The notes under the pieces are model-generated. The model saw nothing but the letters and a program-made list of their open reading frames with translations, was not told the origin of the DNA and made no database searches. Positions 1 through 45,344 of a stretch of DNA of 45,524 bases are shown here, piece after piece (the stretch's first letter is position 1; every line of letters begins with the position of its first letter). The translations under genes were made by a program, and so were the position numbers. Source of the DNA: a virus; the IMG/VR virus record IMGVR_UViG_3300033145_000223, positions 1 through 45,524 of that record; one strand, 5' to 3'.

Positions 1-114
1 GAATTCTGCGTTATTCGTCTGCTTGCCGTCACGATCACCCTCCTGAAGATTCGTCCACTGCAAGCCTGCCCCGGAGGTGTAAATCGTGATCTTGTTGCCT
101 GCCGCGCCCCACGA
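1..114. repeat. terminal direct repeat, copy 1 (circular join)
   Basis: These 114 bases recur without a mismatch at 45411-45524. The tail tube reading frame continues from base 1 into base 45410 with no break and ends normally. The repeat is therefore best read as overlap left when a circular or circularly permuted genome was assembled, giving a unit of 45,410 bp. It is not necessarily a physical terminal repeat of the virion DNA. Confidence 0.95.
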
Positions 115-903
115 ACAGGAGAACGCAAGGCCGCAGGTCGTCAGGAATTCACTCCACTTGTTGCCGGACGCGATAAGCTCATCCTCCATGTCAATCGAGC
201 CTGTCGTGTTGCAAGACGTGACAAGAGCGAATAGAAGCCCTGTTGCGTCCGCCGGGTCTTCCGAGAATTGAACATCGTTACCCGGATCGATTTTCATCTC
301 GTTGAATCGCGGTGTGTGGGTTCCGATTGTGGTCGTTACACTTGCGAAACGCGAAGGAGTGACAGACGGATAATCCGGGGCAATTATAGCCTCGGCACTC
401 GGCTCCAGCCACTTACCGCGGAACTCGAACTCGATGTACGGAACCTCGCCATCGGGAAAAGTCATCGGGAAATTGCCCATCGCGCCGATGATTCCCTTTT
501 TGAGTCCGTCCTCCCACACCTCGATAGTGAGCGTCTTGACTTTCGTGCCGGGCGGTTCAGACACCGGGGTGTAGGTACTCGCCGCTGCTCCGGCTCCGGC
601 AACCCAACGACATGCAGGCAAGAAGGTTTTTGCCCATTGCGGAACCGCTTCCCCCGCTCCAGCGTCGGCAGTTCCCGATCCGTGAATCTCGATCTTGAAC
701 TTGACGGTTCCCATGCGCTTTCCGGGTACGGATTTCAGGGGCATCATTGACCCTTGCCCTTGTCGCTCCGCGCTCGGGATGTCCATTTGAATCTCGACAT
801 CGAAGGCATTGAACTTGCCGTCCGTCGCATCGACAGCAATCTCATCTCCCGGTGTCGTCTCGATCTTGGCAGCGAGCACTCGATTTACTTTCAGTAAAAC
901 CAT
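1..903 (-). CDS. major tail tube protein (5' part; continues across the join)
   Basis: The gene starts at ATG 903 behind a good AGGAGG site. It runs off the window start and, through the join, ends at TAA 45354-45356, giving 319 residues in all. It lies directly after a tail-terminator-like gene and before the Z-like, G/GT and tape measure genes, which is the position of the tail tube subunit in lambda-like siphoviruses. The sequence is rich in beta-strand, Gly and Thr, with no signal or membrane segment, as expected for a tube protein. The middle (around residues 90-200) could include an Ig-like or other insertion, since simple tube proteins are often shorter. Function rests on position and composition, not on a diagnostic motif. 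Confidence 0.7.
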   Translation of the reverse strand, partial: MVLLKVNRVLAAKIETTPGDEIAVDATDGKFNAFDVEIQMDIPSAERQGQGSMMPLKSVPGKRMGTVKFKIEIHGSGTADAGAGEAVPQWAKTFLPACRWVAGAGAAASTYTPVSEPPGTKVKTLTIEVWEDGLKKGIIGAMGNFPMTFPDGEVPYIEFEFRGKWLEPSAEAIIAPDYPSVTPSRFASVTTTIGTHTPRFNEMKIDPGNDVQFSEDPADATGLLFALVTSCNTTGSIDMEDELIASGNKWSEFLTTCGLAFSCSWGAAGNKITIYTSGAGLQWTNLQEGDRDGKQTNNAEF

Positions 904-918
904 TTCCTTATCCTCCTA

Positions 919-1398
919 TCAATTTGCTGAAGTGTATGGGTCGCCTTCACGGACGCGATACCAGACATTGACCATTACCACAACATCCGACCATTTTGTG
1001 TTTACGTCAATTGTTGATAATGTGACTTCCGTTTTTATCGCCAGTGTCGCGCGTTGCGCATCCTCCAGAAGTTTCATCTCCACATCAGCCGCCATTTTCT
1101 GCAATCGTGTTTCGACTGTTTCGGTTTCCTCGTCATCTTCAAACCCGAATGTGTCGATAGCATATTCTTGATTCCAACAGATACGACGCGGGTTACCAGC
1201 AGATGAGTAGTTTTTATCCTCTACCTTTCCCCTTGTTATCAAGACAGATGTTTTGTCCTTTGGCACATAATCTCCAGACAACTCCTGTCGATTAGGGCGA
1301 GCCGCCACAAGATCATAATTGAATCCGTTGGCAACAGTTATCTCCGCAAGGCGGTCTTTTATTTCTTGAGTTATCTGCTCAACGATTGGAGTCGCCAT
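919..1398 (-). CDS. tail terminator / tail completion-like protein
   Basis: This 159-residue protein sits between the head-closure gene (its ATG lies at the end of that gene) and the tail tube gene. In long-tailed phages the tail terminator (gpU type) occupies this slot; it caps the tube and joins it to the head. The N-terminus is an amphipathic helix followed by alternating strands, and a long helix lies near residues 92-120, compatible with the alpha/beta fold of that family. No unique motif is visible, so the assignment is by gene order and size. A general minor tail protein is the alternative. Confidence 0.6.
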   Translation of the reverse strand: MATPIVEQITQEIKDRLAEITVANGFNYDLVAARPNRQELSGDYVPKDKTSVLITRGKVEDKNYSSAGNPRRICWNQEYAIDTFGFEDDEETETVETRLQKMAADVEMKLLEDAQRATLAIKTEVTLSTIDVNTKWSDVVVMVNVWYRVREGDPYTSAN

Positions 1399-3143
1399 TA
1401 TTCCACCATGTAGTAAACCATGTTGCCGTCACCGTCTTGAACAAGCGGCTCGACGATTCGATATTTCTTCGGAGTTTTACCGCGACGCTCATCAACCTTC
1501 ACCATGTCAAGCCCGCAATTTACTTCGTCGGTTGCAATGCCGGTTGTGCTGTCGTTGTCAACTTGAATCTCGATATGCTTGATACTCACACTGCTGGTAA
1601 CTCCAGCTTGATTTTTAATCTGTTGCGGCGGGTTTCTGTCCACCACCGCCCAAATCCTACGCTCACTCCCGATCTTCGGGCAGAAGCTAATCTCCTCTCC
1701 GAAGTCTATCAGGATTTGATTCGTGCTTGCGGCAAGCGCGGTGTCCGTGACCTGGCATCGAATCATGTCGCTCGGGGTCGAGAACACGCCGGAGGTTTCG
1801 GAATATGACCTGATCTCATAATAGCCAACTGATAGCCCGGTGATCGTCTTCGTCATCGCGCCCGTATCGGTCGTCGTCACACTCGAATAAGTGGTCGTCC
1901 CTTCACGCCGATATTCGATTGTTGTCTTGGTCGCGTCATCGTCAATCGTCGCCGCGTACTCACCTGTCTCGCCGTCCTCGTTGTCTGTCCACGCCGGGGA
2001 TGCAGGCTCGTCAGGTGGGGGAGGAGCGGGGGCATCGCCGACTGTGAGGAAATTGCCGGTGTCGGCAAGTCCTGCCCGCTCAACGCCAGTATCGGCATCG
2101 AGTATTGCCCGTAATTGAAAATATTTCCCTGTTGGATCGCTTTCGGACTGGAGTGCCGTTAAGTCCATTTCAGCCGACCAAAACGGCAAGCCGGATATAT
2201 CGTGGCAGGAGTATTGATAATCGTGTATCGTGCCGACCGTCACCAACTCGATGATATTGATCGCAGACATGTCAACAGCCCGAGAACTTTCAAGGTCAAT
2301 TTCGTTAAACACAACTACTGGTGAAGATTCGGTAGCAAACACCTTCTTAATCTCCGCAGGAATCGCAAAGCTCGCCGCCGTGGAAATGATGCCGTCGTAA
2401 ATCACAACCTCGTAAACATCAATGTCGCCGGGATGACCCATTGCAGCCCTTGCGCCGACTGCAAGCAAGCATGAACCGGCATCTGTGAGAACTCCGGTAA
2501 TATCAGAATCGCCGGACTTAATGTTAGTGGTTACATCGGATACACGACCTGCGTAGACTTGGATTTCATTATTGGCGGTAGATATTGTAATCGCGATATA
2601 CACAGGTTCATTCTGGTCCCAAGATAATCCTGCGCCATTTATCTGTTCTTTTGTTATGGTATAGTTAGCGACAAAACCAGATGTAGCATTCCACAGTTGT
2701 ATGGCCATACCGCCGTCTGTTTTAACGTAACAGTTTAGAGTATTTGCACCTCCAGCTAAACCAGCGAGTTGAAGTATCGTTTCGATACTTGCGGGAACAT
2801 CAGTCCAGTTCGGAGAGATTTTTGCAGTAATCGTACAATCGCCGAATTTGAAACCATCCGGCATAGTGTACGATGACGATTCGGTGGCTTTTGTGTCGTA
2901 AAAACCACCACTTACCACACCTCCAGAGCCGTCTATCAACGCAACGGTTCCGGTAGACGATGTTGTATAATCGGGGTTCCGGTCCGTGTTGTAACTACAC
3001 AAGAATATGATAGACTTACCCGCCGACAACACATCCTTGCCAAGATTGCGCAGACGGATTTGACTGTTACTCTCGGCAAGCTCAAGGTCGCCGTCGAGAG
3101 AGTCGTAGTCTGAAACATCTAATCCGATTTTATCAAGACCCAT
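1398..3143 (-). CDS. head-closure protein with N-terminal LamG-like and Fn3 domains
   Basis: The protein has 581 residues. Residues about 475-581 look like a complete small phage head-closure (stopper) protein: a start resembling IDFGEEISF, then AVVDRNPP, a strand with VDNDSTTGI, and a final segment with GKTPKKYRI. Such proteins are usually around 100 residues and stand alone. Here the domain is preceded by a proline-rich linker (APAPPPP, near 371-377), an Fn3-like domain (about 380-465) and a concanavalin/LamG-like beta-sandwich (about 85-270). The gene overlaps its upstream neighbour by TAATG and precedes the tail terminator gene, the usual place for a closure protein. The extra domains would project from the neck as a collar or whisker and could bind glycans. 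The domain reading is by eye. Confidence 0.6.
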   Translation of the reverse strand: MGLDKIGLDVSDYDSLDGDLELAESNSQIRLRNLGKDVLSAGKSIIFLCSYNTDRNPDYTTSSTGTVALIDGSGGVVSGGFYDTKATESSSYTMPDGFKFGDCTITAKISPNWTDVPASIETILQLAGLAGGANTLNCYVKTDGGMAIQLWNATSGFVANYTITKEQINGAGLSWDQNEPVYIAITISTANNEIQVYAGRVSDVTTNIKSGDSDITGVLTDAGSCLLAVGARAAMGHPGDIDVYEVVIYDGIISTAASFAIPAEIKKVFATESSPVVVFNEIDLESSRAVDMSAINIIELVTVGTIHDYQYSCHDISGLPFWSAEMDLTALQSESDPTGKYFQLRAILDADTGVERAGLADTGNFLTVGDAPAPPPPDEPASPAWTDNEDGETGEYAATIDDDATKTTIEYRREGTTTYSSVTTTDTGAMTKTITGLSVGYYEIRSYSETSGVFSTPSDMIRCQVTDTALAASTNQILIDFGEEISFCPKIGSERRIWAVVDRNPPQQIKNQAGVTSSVSIKHIEIQVDNDSTTGIATDEVNCGLDMVKVDERRGKTPKKYRIVEPLVQDGDGNMVYYMVE

Positions 3144-3385
3144 TACTTCTCCAGGAGTTTGTCGATCTTCTTTTCGACGCGCTGCGAGCGCTCCATAAGG
3201 ACTTTTATGTCGCCGCGAATCTCGGCAGTCGTCTCACGCTGGACCGCCTCGTTCTCATGCACCCGTTCTTTCAATATCGATGTTGCGGATACATTATGCA
3301 GCCCGAGAAATACGGTGATTAACAACACGAGTGATATAAAGGCCGGGATTACATACTTGCCGTTTGATTTCTTCGGTGCGGTCAC
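3143..3385 (-). CDS. small membrane-anchored coiled-coil protein
   Basis: This 80-residue protein starts at GTG 3385 behind AAGGAG. Residues about 11-31 form one hydrophobic membrane segment, and residues 38-80 are highly charged and helical, suitable for a coiled coil. It lies just after a strong intrinsic terminator and before the head-closure gene, an odd place for a membrane protein within a structural operon. A small holin, an inner-membrane spanin-like protein or a superinfection factor are possible; the sequence does not decide. Confidence 0.6.
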   Translation of the reverse strand: MTAPKKSNGKYVIPAFISLVLLITVFLGLHNVSATSILKERVHENEAVQRETTAEIRGDIKVLMERSQRVEKKIDKLLEK

Positions 3386-3452: not shown

Positions 3453-5936
3453 TTATGTTGCCGCTGTCAATTCCACGTACCCCTTCTTCGCGCCAATCAT
3501 CGAACAGAACCACATCTTTGCGCCTGCGCCCGCGCCGGAGGCCAAAGCCCAATCACCGTCTGCCGTTAGTGTCGTCAGGTCTGTCAATGCAGGATTCCCC
3601 GAACTGGCAAGGCCAATCTTCGCCTTGTGATCGAGGGCAAGCGTATGTTGCGCAAGCGTCAGGTGGTAATACTCGCCACCCGTTCCGCCGTCTTTCCCGC
3701 CGGTAGTATTGTGATCGACATCCGCGTCGTTTATCATCGAGGCATCAACATGGCCGCCTGCATCAAGTTTGATCGGCTTGCCAGCATCACCGGCTCCCGC
3801 GCCCGACGCGAGGAACTCCGACTCCGCAAAATATCTATCGTCGTGGATGTGGATATTCGTCTCGCCAGAACTTGTCAACTCGTCCAAGTTCGATGCCGTG
3901 ACATTCGAGCCGACTGCGACAGAATCTACCTCGAATAATGCCGGAACGCCGGTGACATACAGGTTCTCGGCCCCATCGTCAGCAAGTCCTGCCCCAGCGA
4001 AGTCTGAAACATCGACGTGCAATTCAGCCCCGGAAGCCCGGAGACCATCGCCGTCGATAGACGCCATATCCATACCGACACCGTGGGCCGTAACGTTCAC
4101 CGCCGCGATATTCCCGCCGGTCGTGCCGTCAGGATCGACGGCCAGGTCATCGGCGTTCGCCGTGATGCCGTTCCCGCCAATTGCATTGATAGTATGTCCG
4201 GTTTTTGTTAATCCACTGCCAGCGGTAATCATACCCGCGCCGGAAAACGGGGTAAACGTGAGGGCAGTTGTATCAAGCGTGATGGGATCGTTGGTGACAA
4301 GGACAAAGCCGTGGTCGGCATTGACCGTACCCTCCTCGACGAAGGTAAACATTCCGGGATTGACTTCCGCATCAGTGTCGGCATCCGTAGCACGAGTCAA
4401 AACAAACGCCGCACCACCCGCTCCGGCAGTAGTACACAAGAATATCCCGTTGTTGAGACCTGATGCCTGGTCCTGAACGAGCACCCTGTCATTAAGCGCT
4501 AATACCACGCCGTCGATTGTCTCAACTCCGACAGCATCGGCAGTCAGAGTCTTTCCCACTCCAGTTCCCGCCGCCGTGCAAGCACTCAATGCGGCATCCG
4601 TCGCAAGATGTACGGATTCCTTCAGGTCGAGACCGGAGACCAGCGCGTCAGCGTATGCCTTGTTCACGAGGTCATTCACGCCGGAGGGTGTCTGCGTCGA
4701 TGACGGGCAAGTCGTATTGAATGTGTGAGCGCCAGTCCAAGCTGCGCCATAGGTCAGGTCGAGAGAAACCGTCGTGCCCCCACCTCCCGCAATTCCAGCG
4801 CCTTGAGCCGCGATACGGAGGTTTTCACCATCTGCCTCGATGCCCGTTCCTGCAACGTCCGAGGCGTCGAACGCGAATTGAGACGTGGTATTCTGGATAC
4901 CGTCTCCAGCTAACGCCGTCACCAGATCGTCGATGCTCTCCTTTGCAGATGCGTTGCTTGCGTTGGCATCGATGATTCCGATTGAATCCGCGGTAACATC
5001 GACAGTCGCCGCGCTCAAATCGTTAAGATCGAGTTTCACTTGAGCCGTGTCAATCGAGAGGCCGCCGTTGGTCTTGATGTCCAGCGCAAGATCGTCAGCA
5101 TTGGCTGTTATCCCGTCGCCGCCGATAGCGTTCATGGTGTCACCGGTTTTCGTCAAGCCGGTTCCGGCGACGACCATTCCAAGCGCGTTGAAATTCGTGA
5201 ATGTCAGCGCGTCAGTATCGAGATCGAATGGCTCGTCTGTCGAGAGAATAAATCCGTGCTCGGCATGAACAGTGCCCTTCTCGGCAAAGCAGATCATGCC
5301 GGAGGTCACGCGGTCGTCTGTATCGGCATCCACAGCGCGAGTCAGGATGAACTTCGCGCCGCCTGCACCCGCTTGAGTGCAAAGATAAATCCCGTTGTCC
5401 TTCCCGGCGACCTGATTTTTGACCAGAACTCTGTCGTTCAGGGCAAGCGTCACGCTATCAATCGTCTCGACGCCGTTAGCATCTGCCGTGAGCGTCTTGC
5501 CGATCTGGGAACCGGCAGCCGTGCAAGCCGAGAGTGCCGCGTCCGTAGCAAGCTGGACATCGCCCTTGATGTCGAGGTGTGTCGGGTCGTCCCCCGGCTC
5601 GGAAATCAGATTAAGGATTACCGGGATGTAATCGGTTGTGATTGCGTCCTTCGCGGCTCCCGAAGTTCCAATCCGCTTCCACGCGCCCTTTGTCGGCGTG
5701 CAGACAAGGTTTGTCGAATCCCAGAACAGTGCAATTCCGGCATTTGCTATCGTGCCGGTAGCGGGGAGATTGGCGATACCGTTAATCTTCAACGGGCCTT
5801 CTGCCGTGTTGAGAATATCCTTGATGACAACTCCGTGCATATCATCGGTCTCGACAACCGTGCCACTCGCAAGAGTAACGCCGGTCGTGTTCGTATACGG
5901 CATCGTGTTACCTGCGGCAAAATATACCTTGCTCAT
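3453..5936 (-). CDS. head fibre: capsid decoration domain plus duplicated fibre repeats
   Basis: The start is ATG 5936 behind GGAGGTGG, giving 827 residues. Residues 1-115 are clearly related to the neighbouring 117-residue decoration protein (shared GNT..YTN, then LPA.GTI..AG..L..D.TN). After it come two copies of a fibre-type repeat of about 165 residues (about 121-290 and 437-600), each with LATDAALSACTAAG, ALNDRVLV, a GIYLC or GIFLC strand and DADTD. The tail has HIHDDRYF and GGTGGEYYHLT, patterns typical of phage fibres. Only head genes surround it, so the likely reading is a fibre anchored on the capsid by its decoration domain, perhaps for weak binding to cells or mucus. Glycine and alanine content is very high. 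Confidence 0.7.
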   Translation of the reverse strand: MSKVYFAAGNTMPYTNTTGVTLASGTVVETDDMHGVVIKDILNTAEGPLKINGIANLPATGTIANAGIALFWDSTNLVCTPTKGAWKRIGTSGAAKDAITTDYIPVILNLISEPGDDPTHLDIKGDVQLATDAALSACTAAGSQIGKTLTADANGVETIDSVTLALNDRVLVKNQVAGKDNGIYLCTQAGAGGAKFILTRAVDADTDDRVTSGMICFAEKGTVHAEHGFILSTDEPFDLDTDALTFTNFNALGMVVAGTGLTKTGDTMNAIGGDGITANADDLALDIKTNGGLSIDTAQVKLDLNDLSAATVDVTADSIGIIDANASNASAKESIDDLVTALAGDGIQNTTSQFAFDASDVAGTGIEADGENLRIAAQGAGIAGGGGTTVSLDLTYGAAWTGAHTFNTTCPSSTQTPSGVNDLVNKAYADALVSGLDLKESVHLATDAALSACTAAGTGVGKTLTADAVGVETIDGVVLALNDRVLVQDQASGLNNGIFLCTTAGAGGAAFVLTRATDADTDAEVNPGMFTFVEEGTVNADHGFVLVTNDPITLDTTALTFTPFSGAGMITAGSGLTKTGHTINAIGGNGITANADDLAVDPDGTTGGNIAAVNVTAHGVGMDMASIDGDGLRASGAELHVDVSDFAGAGLADDGAENLYVTGVPALFEVDSVAVGSNVTASNLDELTSSGETNIHIHDDRYFAESEFLASGAGAGDAGKPIKLDAGGHVDASMINDADVDHNTTGGKDGGTGGEYYHLTLAQHTLALDHKAKIGLASSGNPALTDLTTLTADGDWALASGAGAGAKMWFCSMIGAKKGYVELTAAT

Positions 5937-5981
5937 ATTTTCCACCTCCAAAAATTATTCGTAAGTCAAGACCGATTAAAA

Positions 5982-6370: not shown

Positions 6371-8536
6371 TTACGCCATGTTGCAGAACATCCCTCTCCA
6401 GTCGAGGGCTTTCGCAGCGACGCTGTGCTTGATCTTGAATTTCTCGCCGTCTGTGTCCCAGTCAAGCTGTGTCGAGAACTGCGGAGTCTCGCGGCCCTGC
6501 AAGAACCCAACCTCGACCGTGCTGACAGGCTGCGTGTGCGGATCGCACATCAGATACCATTCCGAGGCGCTTGAAAGCTCCGGCAGGTCGATCACGGTGT
6601 AATTACCCTGGAATGTGTTGGCCTCGTGTCCGTGGTTCGCAACCGGCGAATACTCGGACGACATAAGCTTCATCGCAGTGCGCTTGATGTTAGGCGGCAC
6701 GACAAGTAGACTCGGCATCAGCGCAAGTTTCTCGTCTGCAAGCCCGGTCTGCGTCCTGATTGCAAGCTCGGCAGCCGTCAGCGTAGTCTCACTGATGACA
6801 GCCGCAGCCGCGGATTCGTTAGCATGGGTCGCTTGGTCAAACAGCGGATTGCCGTCAGCCATGTTCGCATTTGCGTTCAGGATCGCCACGGCTGTAACAT
6901 CCTCAAGCCGTTTCGCAGCGACACCCATTGCCGCCGGAATCCGGGAGAATGCGTCCATGTCATCGTTGATAATCGACTCCTCGGTCATAAAGAGACCGAG
7001 CCAGTAGATTGCGAGCGCATAGACTTCCTCTGCGTCTGAAAGCGAGCCATAAGTTATCTCGCTACCTTCGGGGCGAAGCCGCAAATTGCCGACGGCTGAA
7101 AGCCGGATTCTATGGATCGTCTTGAAATCCGGCGCGACGCCGCGAGTACACCAGAGCGGCCACTGTGTCGGGTGTTCCATGTAGCTTGCGAGGAGCGTCT
7201 TGTTCAAGGCGTCCTGCAAGATATAATCGAAGTCGCTTGTGCTCATTGCGAGGTTGCAGCGTTGGCGCGCCACGTTCGGGCGAAGCATCATTTCCGCGAT
7301 TCCGCGATTGTCAAAGCCGTCCGTATGAACGCCGAGTGACTTGAAATATGCCCGGCCAATATCGACCAGACTGCGATTCTTGAGAGCCATCGCGCCGTTG
7401 TGCGGCTCCCTGATCTTGAGCTTGCCCCCTGCATCGAGGATCGGCGTTTTGGTGACCGGGTCAAGCGTGATAAGTCTGTTGTTGAACTTGAGCAGAATCG
7501 CGTCGCTGACCATCGTATCGAGACCTTCCTGCGTGCGGTCTGCACCGACCACGATACGCGGATTCGCCTTCTCCAGTTCGACCAGCGCGGACAGTTTGAT
7601 GTCGGTCTCCGAGAGTTTCCGGTTTTCCTTGCTTGCCGTAACCCACTCCGCAGAGAGTTTGTAGGTCGAAGCAACATCGGCGATGAAGGAAAGACGCGCC
7701 TCGGCTTCCTTCGCGCCGGCTTCTTTCGCGGCGGCAAGGCGTGCCAGTTCTTCTTTGGCCACGTCGTCGGGGATCACTTCCGGGTCGTCGATCACTTCCG
7801 GCTCTTCGACGAGCGCGGCAAGGCGTTTCACCTCTGCGAGCTTGTCGGCTTTCAGGCCCGCGATGAAGGTCTCCATTTCGGCATCGGTCGCGTCCTTTTT
7901 CAGTCCGAGTGAAATCAGGTATTCTCTGGCTTTCATTTCTTCGTCCTCCAAATTGTTGTCTGCGTTTTCCGTTTTTGTTGAAAATAATCCGTCAGGATTC
8001 GCCGCGCCCTTGCCAACCCAGTCCACCGACTCAAGAGATTTGAGACGACCGACAAGCGGCGAGTCCGGGTTTTCCTCCTGATATTTTTCCATTTCAGGGA
8101 TGTCGAAGAAAAAGGCGATTGACAGTCCGAGTGCCGAAGGATCGTCCTCGACTTCATCTTCAAGCCATGCGCGGACATTTCCGAGGCCGGGGAGCTTATC
8201 AGCGCCCTTCGAGAAGTGAAAGTCCGCGCGGATTTTATCGCCGTCTCGATATGAGTTTTTCATCCTGCCGAGCTTCGTGCCAAGTTGCTCGAAATCCTTC
8301 ATCCAAGATTCGTGCTTGTAAAAAGATAGCACGCCTGTATCCGATGCCGAGGTCATGGCTAAAAGTACTTGGTCAGACATTGTTTGATCGACAAGGAAAT
8401 TATGCCCGCGTGCTTCCCCCTCTGTGATGACCGATACTCCTGTGATTATGCCCTTCTCGCGGTCAACAACGGATTTAGAATCCGATTGTAATTTCACCAT
8501 GAAATGCTGCTTGCCTTTGAGGTTCTTTATTTTCAT
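6371..8536 (-). CDS. prohead protease / major capsid protein fusion
   Basis: The protein has 721 residues. The first ~195 resemble prohead protease domains (FMVKLQSDSK start, then VSVITEGEARGHN, FYKHESW, and a segment near 125-150 with SALGLSIAFFF). A charged, Glu/Ala/Lys-rich helical stretch (about 200-320) would act as scaffold or delta domain. Residues about 325-721 resemble the major head subunits of Mu gpT-type and HK97-like capsids. It overlaps the portal gene end by four bases. Fusions of this kind are known in many metagenomic siphoviruses; the protease would cleave itself from the capsid domain during maturation. No separate protease, scaffold or capsid gene exists nearby, which supports the assignment. 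Confidence 0.8.
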   Translation of the reverse strand: MKIKNLKGKQHFMVKLQSDSKSVVDREKGIITGVSVITEGEARGHNFLVDQTMSDQVLLAMTSASDTGVLSFYKHESWMKDFEQLGTKLGRMKNSYRDGDKIRADFHFSKGADKLPGLGNVRAWLEDEVEDDPSALGLSIAFFFDIPEMEKYQEENPDSPLVGRLKSLESVDWVGKGAANPDGLFSTKTENADNNLEDEEMKAREYLISLGLKKDATDAEMETFIAGLKADKLAEVKRLAALVEEPEVIDDPEVIPDDVAKEELARLAAAKEAGAKEAEARLSFIADVASTYKLSAEWVTASKENRKLSETDIKLSALVELEKANPRIVVGADRTQEGLDTMVSDAILLKFNNRLITLDPVTKTPILDAGGKLKIREPHNGAMALKNRSLVDIGRAYFKSLGVHTDGFDNRGIAEMMLRPNVARQRCNLAMSTSDFDYILQDALNKTLLASYMEHPTQWPLWCTRGVAPDFKTIHRIRLSAVGNLRLRPEGSEITYGSLSDAEEVYALAIYWLGLFMTEESIINDDMDAFSRIPAAMGVAAKRLEDVTAVAILNANANMADGNPLFDQATHANESAAAAVISETTLTAAELAIRTQTGLADEKLALMPSLLVVPPNIKRTAMKLMSSEYSPVANHGHEANTFQGNYTVIDLPELSSASEWYLMCDPHTQPVSTVEVGFLQGRETPQFSTQLDWDTDGEKFKIKHSVAAKALDWRGMFCNMA

Positions 8537-10170
8537 GCCGGATTCTCCGCTGATAATTTCAGGATGTTAGCCCGATTCGCCGCACGGAATTCCTCGCGCT
8601 CTTTTTCCTGCTCGGGTGTAGAATTCCCCACAGTCGCTATCCACGGCAAGACAAGCCCTTTGCTTTCTGCATATTCTTGTTCGGCGGCTCGCTGGTCAAG
8701 AAGCTCTCGCCAGTCCTTTCCCTGCGATTCTGCGATCTCAGATAGTGTCGTACTGCCGGTTTCAAGCTCAATAATATTCGCGGCAGCCGCCTTCGCCGGG
8801 TCAATCCACGGCCTCGCAGGTTTGATCCATTTATCCTCAAGATATGCCTCTTTCCATTCCGGGTCTGACATATACCCCGGAGCGTCAAGTAAGCCCTGCA
8901 AGATGCAGACATCCGTAAACGCATCTCGGATCGGCTGCAAGAAGTTCTCTATAAAATCCTGCTGAATGGCGTCGATTGACTTGTTGAGTTCGATGAGTGC
9001 CTGCCGCTGCGAGGAGAAGTTGCCCTTTGAATAATCCCGCTTTATCAACGAAAAATCAAGACCGATACCCGCCGCATACTCGCTGATCTGCTGATCCATG
9101 TACGCGACGATGTCTTTGTTCGGTCTCACCGGGTCATGGAAGTCAAGCGTCTGACCTTGCGGAAGTTTTATGACTCGCGCCGGTTCCATGATAGTTTCCG
9201 TATCCCCAAGTGGAGTCACGCCATTGTCGTCGGCGGCTTTCTTGCATCCCAGACCGTCCAGATCACCAAGATCATACTCCATGTCGTAGGTGAGCGTCGC
9301 CGTCATCGTCGCTTCCATGCGAGCGGCAAGCAATTCATAGGCGTCCAGCATCGTGAGATGCCTGCCCTTGACCATCGAGGCGACAAGCTGTGAGATTCCG
9401 AGGAGTTGGCGCACACGGTCGTGTCGGAAATAGTGAATCACCCTGTCGGCAAGTACGCGGATCGAATTCGTGAAATAGTTGTCAGTGCCCTCTGTGTAGA
9501 AGTGATATGCGACCGCCACATTTTTGCTATTGACCTCGATGCCGTTGACAACCGCGTTGCCCTTGTAACTCGTAATCGAATTGTCAAGCTGCTCGACTTC
9601 AAGCATCTGGAGAGACAGGCCGGGGATATTGCCCAAGCGATTTTCAACATGGATTATGACGAACGCATTGCCGACGATGAACGCCTCGCGGTCTCCCACG
9701 CGCTGACAGGCAACAAAGTTCTTTTTCTGCTCGTAATCGACGTGCTCTTTTTTCGTTGCCCAACGTCTGAATAGCTGGTCTTTGCGCTTGTTGAAATCAA
9801 TCAGCGGCTCTCCGGTTTTCGGATTCCGCGCCACGCCACGCGGTTTGAGACCCGTGCCGACAGCGTGCCTTCCCCGTCCGTCAGCCGCGCTTGCCGCCGC
9901 CCAGAAATCGCGGACTGTCTGACGGACTCGCGCTGTAATTACCGGCAAATCCTCTGTGATTTCCGTGCGAGAGGAAACAGAAGTCCACGGCCAATCCCGC
10001 GTTGTGCGGTTTATCTTTGCCGCGTCATGGACTGCGAGGAGTTCTTTTTTGTTCTTTTTGATTGCCTTATTCTTGGCAAGTTCTCTATCGAGGTCTCGCT
10101 TCGCGCGGAGTTTCTCTGCCTTATCCCTGTAATTCTGTGCAAGTTGCTTGTCTGATTTTCGCTTTGCCAC
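8533..10170 (-). CDS. portal protein, lambda gpB family
   Basis: 545 residues, GTG start overlapping the previous stop as TAGTG. After a lysine-rich N-terminus the protein carries the features of lambda-type portals: an early WPWTSV segment, a R..VRDFW helix, and a later stretch with ISEYAAGIGLDFSLIKRDYS followed by FSSQRQALIE that matches the clip/stem part of this family. It forms the dodecameric ring at the capsid vertex through which TerL pumps DNA. Position between the gpW-like gene and the protease/capsid fusion is the standard lambda order. Length agrees with the family (about 500-550). Confidence 0.9.
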   Translation of the reverse strand: MAKRKSDKQLAQNYRDKAEKLRAKRDLDRELAKNKAIKKNKKELLAVHDAAKINRTTRDWPWTSVSSRTEITEDLPVITARVRQTVRDFWAAASAADGRGRHAVGTGLKPRGVARNPKTGEPLIDFNKRKDQLFRRWATKKEHVDYEQKKNFVACQRVGDREAFIVGNAFVIIHVENRLGNIPGLSLQMLEVEQLDNSITSYKGNAVVNGIEVNSKNVAVAYHFYTEGTDNYFTNSIRVLADRVIHYFRHDRVRQLLGISQLVASMVKGRHLTMLDAYELLAARMEATMTATLTYDMEYDLGDLDGLGCKKAADDNGVTPLGDTETIMEPARVIKLPQGQTLDFHDPVRPNKDIVAYMDQQISEYAAGIGLDFSLIKRDYSKGNFSSQRQALIELNKSIDAIQQDFIENFLQPIRDAFTDVCILQGLLDAPGYMSDPEWKEAYLEDKWIKPARPWIDPAKAAAANIIELETGSTTLSEIAESQGKDWRELLDQRAAEQEYAESKGLVLPWIATVGNSTPEQEKEREEFRAANRANILKLSAENPA

Positions 10171-10400
10171 TATGACGGCTCCCGAAATACACCGAGGACT
10201 GGCCGCTTTTGAGCGGCTGTCTGGTCTTCTTTGTTCATCTGGGTTTTCCAGTATTTGAGCTGGTCGTTGAGTTGGTCAAGCTCGATACGAAGCTTCTTGC
10301 GGCCTGCCGTGCCGGTCTCCTGCATCATCTCTTCGGTGATCTTATAAATCGCCTCTTGAGTGATATTGTACATTTCTTCTGCTGTGTACGTTGCGGCCAT
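10170..10400 (-). CDS. gpW-like head-tail joining protein
   Basis: 76 residues, mainly helical: Y..EEMYNITQEAIYKITEE, then a turn with GTAGRKK and a second helix RIELDQLNDQLKYW. Lambda gpW (68 residues) lies at the same place between large terminase and portal and has comparable size and a helix-turn-helix build, so the role is inferred from position. There is no Shine-Dalgarno site before ATG 10400. A promoter ends six bases upstream, so the mRNA probably begins at the start codon. It is the first gene of the late structural transcript. Confidence 0.6.
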   Translation of the reverse strand: MAATYTAEEMYNITQEAIYKITEEMMQETGTAGRKKLRIELDQLNDQLKYWKTQMNKEDQTAAQKRPVLGVFREPS

Positions 10401-11546: not shown

Positions 11547-14500
11547 TTAAATTAGGTGGTCAAAAGACTTCTGCTCCCATGCGGTAGATTTCTTTTTCTT
11601 CTTCTTCGGTATCGGCTTTGGATTCTCAAGCTCTGCAATCTGACGCTCCCGGAATTTCTGGAAATGACCGGCTTGAGGCAACATGTGGACAAACAGCATA
11701 TATGCCGCCGCAACCTGGTACACCTCGCAGTTTCCGCAGATTACGACCTTGCCGTTTCTCCTGACAATCAAAGTTCCATTCGGAACAGTGGCACAATAAA
11801 CCATCCCGTCATAATGCACGTTCTTGAATATCGGTCGATGAATCTTGTCTTTTCCGTATCTGTTGAGATGACATTGTTTTGTGAGTTTTCTGGATACATG
11901 ATACTGGTCAACTGTGTTTTCCCCATATCGACCTCGTATATTATATGGTTTCGCTTTTCTTGTTTTCATCACTGTGGCAGAACCGACCTTCAAAAACAAT
12001 TCCTGAATATCATCGGCAAGACGCTTGCTCACCGTAGCGTACCATTCACGCCCATTATCTACCCAACCATCTCCAGCGATTGCACCCCGAAGATATGCTT
12101 CAATCACATTCGGGGAAGCGTCTTTAATCCACTGTGGAATAAACTTCGTATATTTATCTCCGAGTTTCCTTACAAGATTATACGCTTGCTGCCGTGAAAT
12201 CACAAAACCTCTGTCAGTTTCATTGAATCCCCACGGCATTTTTCCTAATACCCTCCGTAGAACTTCTCTTCCTTCACCTTCATTTTGATAAATCACAACA
12301 CGCCTTTTTATGCTTGACGGTTGCGATCTGTGAATTATTGACTGGCAACAACCTTCTGCGATATACCAGCCAAGAAATTCAGCCAAATGCTCCGCGTCCA
12401 CACGTTTTTTTTCATCATATCGAGTAGCGGGAAGCTCGTAATACTCAACTCCGGTTCCAATCCAATTTGAAGCAGTTTTTAATCGGCTGTTCTTTGTCAA
12501 CTCACATGCTTTTCTGATATTGATATTACCCCGCTGGCTCAAACATACCATTCTATGGTTAGGGGTTACAAGCATATCAAGACGACTTCCACGCTCACCT
12601 CCGATCTTCACCATATCACCGCAATGCCACTTACTTATGATTTCTGATGGTTGCTGATACTCAATAAGGTCTTTTTCGATATTCACGGTCGCAAGAATGT
12701 CGTATTTGTCTATGTTTTTGAAATACTTCCACCCTCCGCGAGTAAGCACTTCGGTTTCCTCGTCATAGCAGTCACGATAGTCGATACGGACACTCGCTTC
12801 CTTCGGAACCCATCGCGGCTCCTGCTTTCGACCTACCGGAACCTTCTGCATATTGCCCATGTGCAGATTATACTCGATTGATTTGCCCTTTTCCGAGCGA
12901 TTTAGATGCCACATTTCCGCCTCGTCGGTATCCCCCGTACCAACGGTGATAAGATCGGTTAATACATCCTGGCACTGAAGAACGTCAATCCACCATAAAT
13001 ACAGGTTCGGGGCGGTCTTTTTCTTCTTTATACGGCGATAACGGCGGTCTTTTCTCGCATTTTGCTCGTTAGCATACTCCCTACCGCGCCAAAACGGGAG
13101 GCCTTCCTTTGAACTCGCCGCGCCTTTGATAGCCAATACCCGCCTATCATCGACACGTTGCACCCATTCGTACACCTGGGTCGTCCTCGATTTCTCCTCG
13201 TCCTTTAGTTTCGTGCCGCCCGAATCGATTAAAAGCAGTTCAACGCGCATCGGATGAAGCCGCCCGTCCTCGATAGGCCATTGATAGTTCAATATCTTCG
13301 ACCGCACGTCCTCGAATGAGTGGAGGATGCCGTGATAGACACGTTGACTCCGCATACCCGCGCCCCACGCCCGAACTACAACGTAAAAATGATCGTGCTG
13401 TGTATCGACAGTCGCAATCAGCTTTTGACCCCACAGCGGCACGATCCCCTCGTCGTGTGTCGCGCATTTCACCTTGTCGTCGTAAACAGACGCCTTGACA
13501 TCCTTGAGCAAGTCCTCGAATGGTAATCCGAGGGTCTCCGTTCGGAATGTGTACTGCTTGTGTCGGTCTCCAAGCGCCTCGACATAAAGAACCGCGATAT
13601 TTCGCCATGTTTCCCACAGGCAATAAAGTCCGCCACACTGCAAGCCGAGCGTAGTGCCTTGCGGCCACTTCTCGACAGCCTCCGCGTCTGTGATTTTGCC
13701 GTCTAAAGTGCCCCATTTACCCGCCTTGACCATCGCATCTCGCTCTTTTTCCTCGATTCGTCCACCGCATTCCTGGCAAATGTAGTACGTTCCCTGGTCT
13801 TTTATCCACTCAATAGTCTCTTTTCGGGATTCGTCCTTGAGCGAAAGGTACTTTAGCTGCTGAAATATGAGCGGAATCCGCTTGCCACACCGCGGACACG
13901 GGACTAAAAAGTAGAGTTGATACGTACTCTCGGTGAACAGCGTGTAAATCTGGCCTGTACGGAGCGTCGGTGTACTGATATTGATCTGCATCTTGCGATT
14001 TGTGTAGGTCCGCATCCGGGTCCAGGTCCGGCCAACCGGATTTGGTTCCGCGCCGCCCCATTCTTGGAATTTGTCCACCTCGTCACAGATAACACGCCTC
14101 ATAGGGTTTCCCGCGGTAGACGCCGCGGAGCCGGACCACATGAGATGCAGGATGAACGAATTATTGAGCTTGATCTGCGATTTCTGCATGTCCGTCATTT
14201 TCGCCGGCAACAACGGCTTGAGAATCGGCAAATATCGCATCATCGGAGCCACACGGTTGCTGATAAAGAACTTGCCGGTCTTTTCATCTGGGAATGCGAC
14301 GCCCATCGGATCAGGTTCACGGGACGCCCAATACGCAATCAGGTTAAGAGCAGCCCGCGTATATCCCATCTGCCCGGCCTTGACTGCCGCAATCCGCTCG
14401 ACACCGGGAGCAACACACAAATCCATAAGCCCGCGGAGATATGGCGTGAGTTCATTTCGCCACGGGCCGGGATGCGCGGACTGATCTTGCGGGAGAACGA

Positions 14501-14594
14501 GATACTCTTCCGCCCACTCGGAGGGCTTGAGCGGCGGCGGGACGTGCCACGCCTCGCGCTCTGGTGGTGTGAAAATATTAATTCGTGGGATCAT
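11547..14594 (-). CDS. terminase large subunit (GpA family) interrupted by an intein
   Basis: The 1015-residue precursor contains a 668-residue terminase split by a 347-residue intein (residues 609-955). The ATPase half has a Walker-A-like KAGQMGYTR (72-80) and a Walker B RRVICDEVDKF (166-176). A zinc pair CPRC...CQEC lies at 233-276. The nuclease half has TVDTQHD (about 395-401), LLLIDSGG (453-460) and YRD just before the intein, rejoined to CEVYQVAAAYM after splicing, the GpA-type C-terminal signature. TerL cuts concatemers and drives DNA into the prohead through the portal. The C-terminus is lysine-rich. Start ATG 14594 has AAGGAA upstream and overlaps the previous gene by 17 bases. Confidence 0.92.
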   Translation of the reverse strand: MIPRINIFTPPEREAWHVPPPLKPSEWAEEYLVLPQDQSAHPGPWRNELTPYLRGLMDLCVAPGVERIAAVKAGQMGYTRAALNLIAYWASREPDPMGVAFPDEKTGKFFISNRVAPMMRYLPILKPLLPAKMTDMQKSQIKLNNSFILHLMWSGSAASTAGNPMRRVICDEVDKFQEWGGAEPNPVGRTWTRMRTYTNRKMQINISTPTLRTGQIYTLFTESTYQLYFLVPCPRCGKRIPLIFQQLKYLSLKDESRKETIEWIKDQGTYYICQECGGRIEEKERDAMVKAGKWGTLDGKITDAEAVEKWPQGTTLGLQCGGLYCLWETWRNIAVLYVEALGDRHKQYTFRTETLGLPFEDLLKDVKASVYDDKVKCATHDEGIVPLWGQKLIATVDTQHDHFYVVVRAWGAGMRSQRVYHGILHSFEDVRSKILNYQWPIEDGRLHPMRVELLLIDSGGTKLKDEEKSRTTQVYEWVQRVDDRRVLAIKGAASSKEGLPFWRGREYANEQNARKDRRYRRIKKKKTAPNLYLWWIDVLQCQDVLTDLITVGTGDTDEAEMWHLNRSEKGKSIEYNLHMGNMQKVPVGRKQEPRWVPKEASVRIDYRDCYDEETEVLTRGGWKYFKNIDKYDILATVNIEKDLIEYQQPSEIISKWHCGDMVKIGGERGSRLDMLVTPNHRMVCLSQRGNINIRKACELTKNSRLKTASNWIGTGVEYYELPATRYDEKKRVDAEHLAEFLGWYIAEGCCQSIIHRSQPSSIKRRVVIYQNEGEGREVLRRVLGKMPWGFNETDRGFVISRQQAYNLVRKLGDKYTKFIPQWIKDASPNVIEAYLRGAIAGDGWVDNGREWYATVSKRLADDIQELFLKVGSATVMKTRKAKPYNIRGRYGENTVDQYHVSRKLTKQCHLNRYGKDKIHRPIFKNVHYDGMVYCATVPNGTLIVRRNGKVVICGNCEVYQVAAAYMLFVHMLPQAGHFQKFRERQIAELENPKPIPKKKKKKSTAWEQKSFDHLI
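11730..12770 (-). other. intein with LAGLIDADG homing endonuclease, inside TerL
   Basis: The intein starts at Cys609 (block A: C-YDEETEVLTRGGW) and ends at Asn955 (ATVPNGTLIVRRNGK then ICGN), followed by Cys956 as the +1 nucleophile. Block B is VTPNHRMV with the expected T..H. Two LAGLIDADG helices are visible, LAEFLGWYIAEG (737-748) and YLRGAIAGDGW (834-844), so the homing endonuclease looks intact and the element may be mobile. The penultimate residue is Gly rather than the more common His. The insertion point follows Asp608, a probable active-site residue of the terminase nuclease. Confidence 0.92.
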
Positions 14595-39288: not shown

Positions 39289-40002
39289 TTAGTATTTCAT
39301 CACATATCCAGCGACTGACACATCAACGCTGCCAGCAGCCGCGTTTTTGAGATATTGCACTATCTGATCGGCATCGCACATCAGCGAGAAGTTTTCCTCG
39401 TGATTCTCGTTGACATGTTTCTGGCAATGCGTCGCTCCCTTCGCCCGGAAATGAGTGTCCTTGACATGGGTTTCCGCCCACAATTTGACGTGATCGCATC
39501 CCGGCGGGACGAAGGCACTGCAATCAATATCCGTCCATACCACGGCATTTCCTCCGTTCAAGACCTGCATAATCGCCACTGGTTCCTCAAGATAGAATAT
39601 CTCGCGTCGATTCCCGTTGCCGCATTGATGAATATCAAGAAGGTCCTGTCCGTTATCGTTGCGTACCTCCCCGACACGACGCTTGAGTGTGTACGCTCCG
39701 GGCATCGTCGGCGCTGTATTGGAAGTCGAGAACATGGCTGAAACAGTGCCGTTCTCAATATCTCCGATGACCCAGACGTGATACCATGTATTAGCCGCTT
39801 CCGCGCCTGCATCGAGGCCAAGTGCCCCCGCCGCTGTAATGTCGATGGTCATTGCGGCAGATGCTATCATGTGGCCGGGATTGTACGTCGTATCCGTGCA
39901 ACCGTATCCTACGCTGACCGTGACCGTTGCCGCGGTCGCATAAGCTACGTTGAATCCGTTAAGGTCGCCTAATCCAGCGAGAGATGCAGGCCATGAAGTC
40001 AT
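39289..40002 (-). CDS. tail fibre / receptor-binding-like protein
   Basis: 237 residues; ATG follows the previous stop by one base. It begins GDLNGFNVAYATAATVTVSVGYG, then TWYHVWVIGDIENG, a pattern seen in distal tail or fibre proteins that wrap a beta-rich core. It contains several His residues (GATHCQKHVNENHEE). Position at the distal end of the tail operon suggests a role in host contact. No exact family. Confidence 0.55.
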   Translation of the reverse strand: MTSWPASLAGLGDLNGFNVAYATAATVTVSVGYGCTDTTYNPGHMIASAAMTIDITAAGALGLDAGAEAANTWYHVWVIGDIENGTVSAMFSTSNTAPTMPGAYTLKRRVGEVRNDNGQDLLDIHQCGNGNRREIFYLEEPVAIMQVLNGGNAVVWTDIDCSAFVPPGCDHVKLWAETHVKDTHFRAKGATHCQKHVNENHEENFSLMCDADQIVQYLKNAAAGSVDVSVAGYVMKY

Positions 40003-44816: not shown

Positions 44817-45344
44817 TTAAATCTTCTCCAAAAACCGTTTGACCTGCATGTCGATATGATGCTCTAAAATCACACCTCCTCTCGATTCTGTTGTGTCTTT
44901 GATTGAATCGTAATAATCCGCGATGGTCTTGTCGGCTCGAACCATCGTTATAGGGTATCTTGCACGCCCTATTCTCCGCATAGCAACAGTTGATTTCCCG
45001 CGCTTGAGAAGAAATCCACCATGCTGATATTCGCCTGTTTTCTTCGACAATAAGCCACCGCCAGAAGGTTTCGGCTTAAGCCACGCATAAGGAAACCCAT
45101 ACGCGCTAAATCGTATTTTCGCAGCAAAGTGTCTTATGGTTGCCTTGTCAATAAAAGTATACTTGCGGACGTGTTTCTGGATAAGCCCTGCAAGAATAGA
45201 AATACTTTTAACTGACTCCTTACGAACAGTCACGGCAGTTTTGTTAATCGAATCCCGCATAATCCGCGGAATGTATCGCGGATATTTACGGAACGTCGAT
45301 TCCAGACGCTTGATCTGGACTTTACTGAATCCAACGTTTATCAT
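44817..45344 (-). CDS. minor tail protein Z-like / tail completion protein
   Basis: 175 residues, ATG 45344 behind GAGGGCGAT. The helix at 23-45 (IPRIMRDSINKTAVTVRKES) and the later part with AGLIQKHVRKYTFIDKATI followed by basic, beta-rich sequence resemble the gpZ family of lambda-type tails. In related phages it helps tail completion or joining. It lies between the tube gene and G, a variation on the lambda order in which Z precedes U and V. Confidence 0.65.
   Translation of the reverse strand: MINVGFSKVQIKRLESTFRKYPRYIPRIMRDSINKTAVTVRKESVKSISILAGLIQKHVRKYTFIDKATIRHFAAKIRFSAYGFPYAWLKPKPSGGGLLSKKTGEYQHGGFLLKRGKSTVAMRRIGRARYPITMVRADKTIADYYDSIKDTTESRGGVILEHHIDMQVKRFLEKI

Follow-up and report, generated by a model that had tools for sequence, protein, structure and literature searches.

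The viral genome and its structural genes

The window analysed was the whole of the IMG/VR virus record IMGVR_UViG_3300033145_000223, comprising 45,524 nucleotides. Its two ends share a 114-bp direct repeat located inside the major tail protein gene, and the window is therefore probably a complete genome, either circularised or circularly permuted. The structural genes were found on the minus strand in a lambda-like order, running from terminase through a gpW-like adaptor, portal, protease-capsid fusion, two cement proteins, an 80-aa protein, ORF581, U, V and Z to the tape measure (Table 1). The 80-aa protein matched no family.

Table 1. Coordinates of the structural genes around ORF581 and of the regions within it
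Feature	Coordinates	Strand	Evidence
Head-tail adaptor (gpW-like)	10170..10400	-	phrog_118, E 9e-5
Portal protein	8533..10170	-	PF05136, E 1.7e-67
Protease-capsid fusion protein	6371..8536	-	phrog_4523, E 1e-89
Cement protein, 832 aa, fibre-like repeats	3453..5951	-	PF09956, E 7e-10; phrog tail-fibre and head-decoration matches
80-aa protein, directly upstream of ORF581	3143..3385	-	By eye, a single apparent TM helix followed by a charged helical segment
ORF581, whole frame (head-closure protein with N-terminal extension)	1398..3143	-	581 aa; sole closure-family frame of the genome
Possible LamG-like beta domain (unproven), residues 59-270	2334..2969	-	Borderline profile score only
Residues 271-376, no assignment, PAPPPP linker at end	2016..2333	-	No match; pLDDT mostly <50
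Fn3 domain, residues ~377-466	1746..2015	-	Model; similarity to L106 tail-terminator Fn3
Closure (stopper) domain, residues ~467-581, including short N-terminal helices 468-481 of the model	1398..1745	-	Homology, fold, profile
Tail terminator (U), next downstream of ORF581	919..1398	-	Profile of U relatives, E 2.5e-39
Major tail tube protein (V), runs over contig end to ~45354	1..903	-	phrog_290; 43% to L001; 114-bp terminal repeat
Tail completion protein (Z-like)	44817..45344	-	phrog_27, E 6e-17; PF06763, E 7e-6

The 832-aa cement protein contains two copies of a repeat that is also known from tail-fibre families. The Z-like gene is present after the tail-tube gene, whereas most relatives have it between the closure gene and the tube gene. 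The terminase large subunit (11547-14594, minus strand) carries a LAGLIDADG intein-like insert of ~347 residues (residues ~609-955; PF14528, E 3.5e-8), bordered by Cys on the N-side and GN-Cys on the C-side. A tail-region protein (39289-40002, minus strand) gave a weak match to the second domain of Mtd (E 0.03) and matched phrog_17105 (2e-10); a reverse transcriptase, sought in the genome on account of this Mtd-like gene, was not found.

The first-pass annotation had described ORF581 as a head-closure protein fused to LamG-like and Fn3 domains. The reading frame itself was confirmed as intact, with 581 uninterrupted codons and an ATG at 3143 that follows a GGAG Shine-Dalgarno-like motif. An in-frame GTG (codon 453) and ATG (codon 460) are present near the domain border, neither with a Shine-Dalgarno-like sequence. 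No relatives of the whole protein were found in a peptide scan of viral contigs or by tblastn in phages. In relatives, the closure slot is followed by U, Z or V in 46 of 47 loci, and a portal, capsid or cement gene was recognised upstream in 30 of 47, where two contigs are counted twice, many loci are partial, and all contain the closure domain. ORF581 lies in this neck slot and not among the tail-tip genes; a protein found at the tail tip was what the annotation had named as evidence against its reading.

The C-terminal closure domain

Stand-alone homologues of the ORF581 C-terminus were identified by blastp among the ORFs of capsid-selected relatives, in L003 (37.5% over 112 aa, E 4e-12) and L001 (E 3e-6). 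These proteins are 111 and 130 aa long and are situated in the head-to-tail slot. A closure profile of the other loci scored ORF581 at 85.5 bits (E 1.1e-25); its final alignment excluded the window protein, while the seed alignment of the iteration had contained it. As the next best of the 907 frames in the genome reached only E 0.36, ORF581 is taken to be the sole recognisable closure gene. The family was expanded from a three-sequence alignment, which gave 38 loci, and from a 30-sequence alignment, which gave 41 loci. A first scan of genome contigs for relatives returned none, and a second returned one MAG locus (L079).

Among the 30 aligned family members, 16 matched PF05354 (Phage_attach) at E ≤ 0.1 and five matched phrog_82 (head closure Hc1). 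By record, PF05354 was matched in 11 of 32, one of them over the cut-off, and the window record was not among the matches. That one record is that of L031, which entered the family through iteration and aligned only in part, and the best PF05354 E-value (5.9e-15) should thus not be relied on. Pfam searches with the whole of ORF581 and with pieces of it gave no match to PF05354, and for phrog_82 the closure domain reached no better than E 0.14, over its full length. A profile-profile comparison of the closure domain with three gpFII-type proteins showed no match (probability 1.4), and a PDB sequence search with the domain returned none.

An alignment-based AlphaFold model of ORF581 (29 rows) had a mean pLDDT of 54.5; within the closure domain, values were mostly about 90 or above, with dips to 63-76 near residues 501-520. 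The Foldseek E-values for the model were weak (best PDB match E 0.027), and the matches from a viral fold library included some of closure size amid much noise. When the model was compared with Foldseek's top chains using VIA-align, the best rows were phage necks, all on residues 463-581: the Chi neck 8vhx_F (Z 11.1, 111 aligned, 3.4 A), the lambda chains 8xow_f (Z 10.9) and 8k37_M (Z 10.2), the Pam3 neck (Z 9.9) and FCWL1 (Z 9.4). gpFII is among the components of PDB 8k37 and 8xow, and we infer from their length of 114 residues that it corresponds to chains f and M. Structure prediction, the check proposed in the first-pass annotation, agreed with its assignment of the C-terminal ~105 residues to a small neck protein, as did the stand-alone homologues and the profile score. 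On homology and modelled fold, the C-terminal ~115 residues of ORF581 belong to the lambda gpFII type of head-closure protein.

The Fn3 domain and the N-terminal region

Most of the non-neck rows in the VIA-align comparison were Fn3 chains. Residues ~375-466 of the model aligned with many of these at Z 9.4-10.5, with a pLDDT of about 62-93, and the model thus confirms a predicted Fn3 fold in this part of the protein, a domain type that the annotation had also named. In a six-sequence comparison, this domain was 29% identical over 93 aa to the Fn3 of the L106 tail terminator (E 4e-4). A profile of three closure-protein Fn3 domains from relatives (L051, L056 and L074) scored it above 1000 of 1000 shuffles (13.0 vs 9.5 bits). 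There was no Pfam match to the domain at E ≤ 10.

The model before residue 370 had a pLDDT mostly below 50, and the N-terminal region folded in isolation with AlphaFold had a mean pLDDT of 34 and no confident fold. The N-terminal pieces gave no Pfam match at E ≤ 10, and residues 1-376 had no relatives among the fetched loci or in PDB, Pfam or PHROGs. PF13385 (LamG) was absent from ORF581 and from the rest of the window in the Pfam search. By eye, LamG-like strand spacing was noted, together with a pattern (QVYAGRV ... LLAVGAR ... GDIDVYEVVIYDG) that we take to resemble LamG_3. The score of a strict profile built from phage LamG domains was equalled by nine of 2000 shuffles, and the scores of broader iterated profiles by 179 and 78 of 2000. 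As these scores are reached by shuffled sequences, the LamG label for the first ~370 residues was dropped, and the LamG identity of the region is unproven. The description of some 470 residues of surface-type domains holds for the Fn3 part, as modelled, and is only plausible for the rest.

Extensions on the neck rings of relatives

The closure survey covered 161 loci; a scan with the tail-tube alignment had added 80 loci of the 251 that it found. The closure domain was present in 117 ORFs, representing 80 distinct domains and 112 distinct loci. There was no extension of 30 aa or more on the domain in 105 of the 112 loci. A genuine N-terminal Fn3 was identified in three other loci (L051, L056 and L074), and ORF581 is a fourth such fusion, by far the longest; its first 376 residues were shared by no other locus surveyed. 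The apparent N-terminal extensions in L044, L060, L067 and L073 were rejected, with a start codon located right at the closure domain and an upstream stretch resembling non-coding read-through. We found no description of an Fn3 or LamG domain fused to a closure protein in the open-access literature searched.

The tail-terminator survey found 120 ORFs. A true LamG domain was fused to the N-terminus of the terminator in L046 and L048 (PF13385, E 1e-16; L046:4371-5528), an N-terminal Fn3 was present in L106, and an Fn3-like stretch was seen by eye at the N-terminus in L003. These terminator extensions were always N-terminal, and no C-terminal extension over 40 aa was seen. The L106 terminator Fn3 matched the closure-protein Fn3 domains at E 1e-9 to 1e-12 in the six-sequence comparison. 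LamG-type domains were common in the records examined, being found in 8 of 45 at E ≤ 0.1 (four above the cut-off) and in 17 of 50 at E ≤ 0.001 (three above the cut-off), and none of those records had a LamG domain in a closure gene.

In the closure tree, which has long branches and is based on 116 columns, the Fn3 label needs four changes, at least three of them forced by the starred branches, and L051, L056 and L074 do not form one clade. A single origin of the Fn3-closure fusions was rejected on this count, within the limits set by the 116 columns and the long branches. The row nearest to the window by path is L106; the window domain itself has a long branch (1.14) that joins another long branch, and its exact place is unsure.

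Comparison with known necks

The closest known counterpart is lambda gpFII (PF05354 / phrog_82; PDB 1k0h, 8k37, 8xow), which ORF581 resembles in the fold of residues 463-581 (Z 10-11), in its slot before U/Z/V and in the retained N-terminal helix. It differs in that gpFII comprises 117 aa, whereas ORF581 has ~465 extra N-terminal residues. In the Staphylococcus phage 812, the available part of the source describes an extra outward domain on the stopper gp97 and a neck decorated in hexameric register; that phage differs in its contractile tail, its one external domain and its decorations, which are mostly separate proteins, with no Fn3 reported in that part of the source (PMC12886913).

The neck passage structure (NPS) of the lactococcal 936 and P335 phages likewise forms a collar where head and tail meet, on which binding modules are displayed. 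In the portion of the source available, it is described as a separate protein with a BppU-like N-terminus and a trimeric coiled coil, modelled as an 18-mer; one of its carbohydrate-binding modules bound host cells weakly, and it was reported to be non-essential in TP901-1 (PMC6669499). ORF581 falls outside the NPS as defined there, as its module is fused to the closure (stopper) domain and the Pfam search recognised no domain at its start. The mycobacteriophage Douge also carries surface Ig-type domains on core virion proteins, and these label host cells; they are located on the capsid and the tail tube, with none reported on the stopper in the part of the account available (PMC13033339).

As far as these sources extend, the known neck decorations show two uses, namely ligand binding in the lactococcal NPS and bracing or whisker docking in phage 812. 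ORF581 is a variant on the theme of decorated necks. The suggestion that surface domains are unusual for this component thus holds as to rarity (3 of 112 other loci) and not as to uniqueness.

A putative collar at the head-tail joint

A closure domain bearing large N-terminal additions where head and tail meet is supported by homology, by the order of the genes, by fold and by the finding of no further closure gene in the genome. We propose, with a probability of about 60%, that ORF581 is the phage's only gpFII-type stopper and bears neck arms as a collar, which likely makes low-affinity contact with a host-surface or environmental polymer. The C-terminal ~115 residues would assemble into a hexameric ring, with the gpW-like adaptor on one side and the tail terminator on the other. 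From this ring, the Fn3 and the ~375 residues preceding it would emerge at the N-terminus, immediately before the adaptor-packing helix. In the available parts of the sources, lambda gpFII is described as hexameric, with N-terminal helices that encircle the barrel of the adaptor (PMC10721106), and the R4C stopper helix as touching the adaptor (PMC10276861). Since the model keeps the helices at 468-481, the added domains would exit on the outside, at the adaptor-stopper seam. Hexameric display and an outward orientation are thus expected, and as many as six arms would surround the neck; a six-membered collar can reasonably be inferred from the hexameric state of gpFII. Avidity would then drive the low-affinity polymer contact, which by analogy is the most likely role of the arms; binding to host glycan or mucus in particular would be a guess. 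With no fold identified for residues 1-376, an adhesin function is argued by analogy.

Display for surface contact is favoured, and a structural role is a serious rival, in that relatives carry fibre- or spike-like genes before the closure gene. The N-terminal domains may strengthen the junction of adaptor, stopper and terminator, or serve as a docking point for a separate neck fibre (whisker) with its gene nearby, a reading we consider unlikely overall. In phage 812, the external beta-sandwich on the stopper and separate decoration proteins of the stopper and terminator are suggested, in the part of the source available, to strengthen the neck and to keep whiskers in place (PMC12886913). The genes before the closure gene include a LamG protein with an S74 chaperone in L050 and a beta-helix protein in L051, and in the window a cement protein with fibre-like repeats is encoded upstream of ORF581. 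However, adjacency to a fibre gene does not prove contact, and such genes could encode head fibres. The roughly 465 extra residues also seem more than a brace needs, and the LamG on the L046 terminator belongs to a class usually tied to ligand binding.

It is improbable that the extension is removed by proteolysis, or bypassed by internal initiation near codons 453-460, to yield a normal small closure protein. The protease fused to the capsid protein and a Pro-rich linker at ~373-379 would be consistent with cleavage, and GTG 453 and ATG 460 with bypass, but only the ORF581 start has a Shine-Dalgarno-like sequence, and the in-frame N-terminal Fn3 domains of three relatives outside a single clade suggest that such domains are kept for use. 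A chance or assembly fusion without function would fit the rarity of such fusions, the unshared first 376 residues and the long branch of the closure domain, but is highly improbable given that the 581-codon frame is unbroken and has a ribosome-site-like sequence of its own, that the genome lacks another closure gene and that the Fn3 of ORF581 resembles one on the neighbouring neck ring of a near relative (L106).

Seen across this group of lambda-like metagenomic phages, the neck rings resemble an exchangeable display platform. A broader reading, possible though on balance doubtful, is that the two innermost rings (stopper and tail terminator) form an exchangeable N-terminal platform, with Fn3, LamG and unassigned ectodomains gained and lost on either ring, and that the window phage has turned its DNA gatekeeper into an obligate collar adhesin with six arms, through which contact with a surface could be coupled mechanically to the gate. 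Closure proteins are usually seen as small, buried gatekeepers, and the large ectodomains on ORF581 depart from that. Together with the homologous Fn3 on a terminator, they suggest a third site in lambda-like phages, besides the capsid and the tail, for displaying modules that bind ligands or act in docking. If the collar arms bind host or environmental polymers, the approach of the virion to cells could change, and the stopper would offer a display point in six copies.

Genes preceding the closure slot in relatives

The fibre- or spike-like genes before the closure gene include L050:2345-4537, which encodes the LamG and Peptidase_S74 chaperone protein and has a signal-peptide-like N-terminus by eye, as does a large gene in L051 (L051:4025-5653); the beta-helix protein of that locus is encoded at L051:2454-4028. 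In the same slot, L112:2841-4541 is weakly deacetylase-like (PF01522, E 0.007), L056 has a weak GDSL-like match, and L168:3241-4601 contains two genes that resemble a glycosyltransferase and a methyltransferase by eye. Several virion-type proteins of one phage were observed to end in long poly-serine tails, in L049 (3991-4383, 4423-4941, 7419-7904 and 11053-11523) and L045 (150-539 and 3054-3479), where they are located in the cement slot, the tail-tube slot and the tail.
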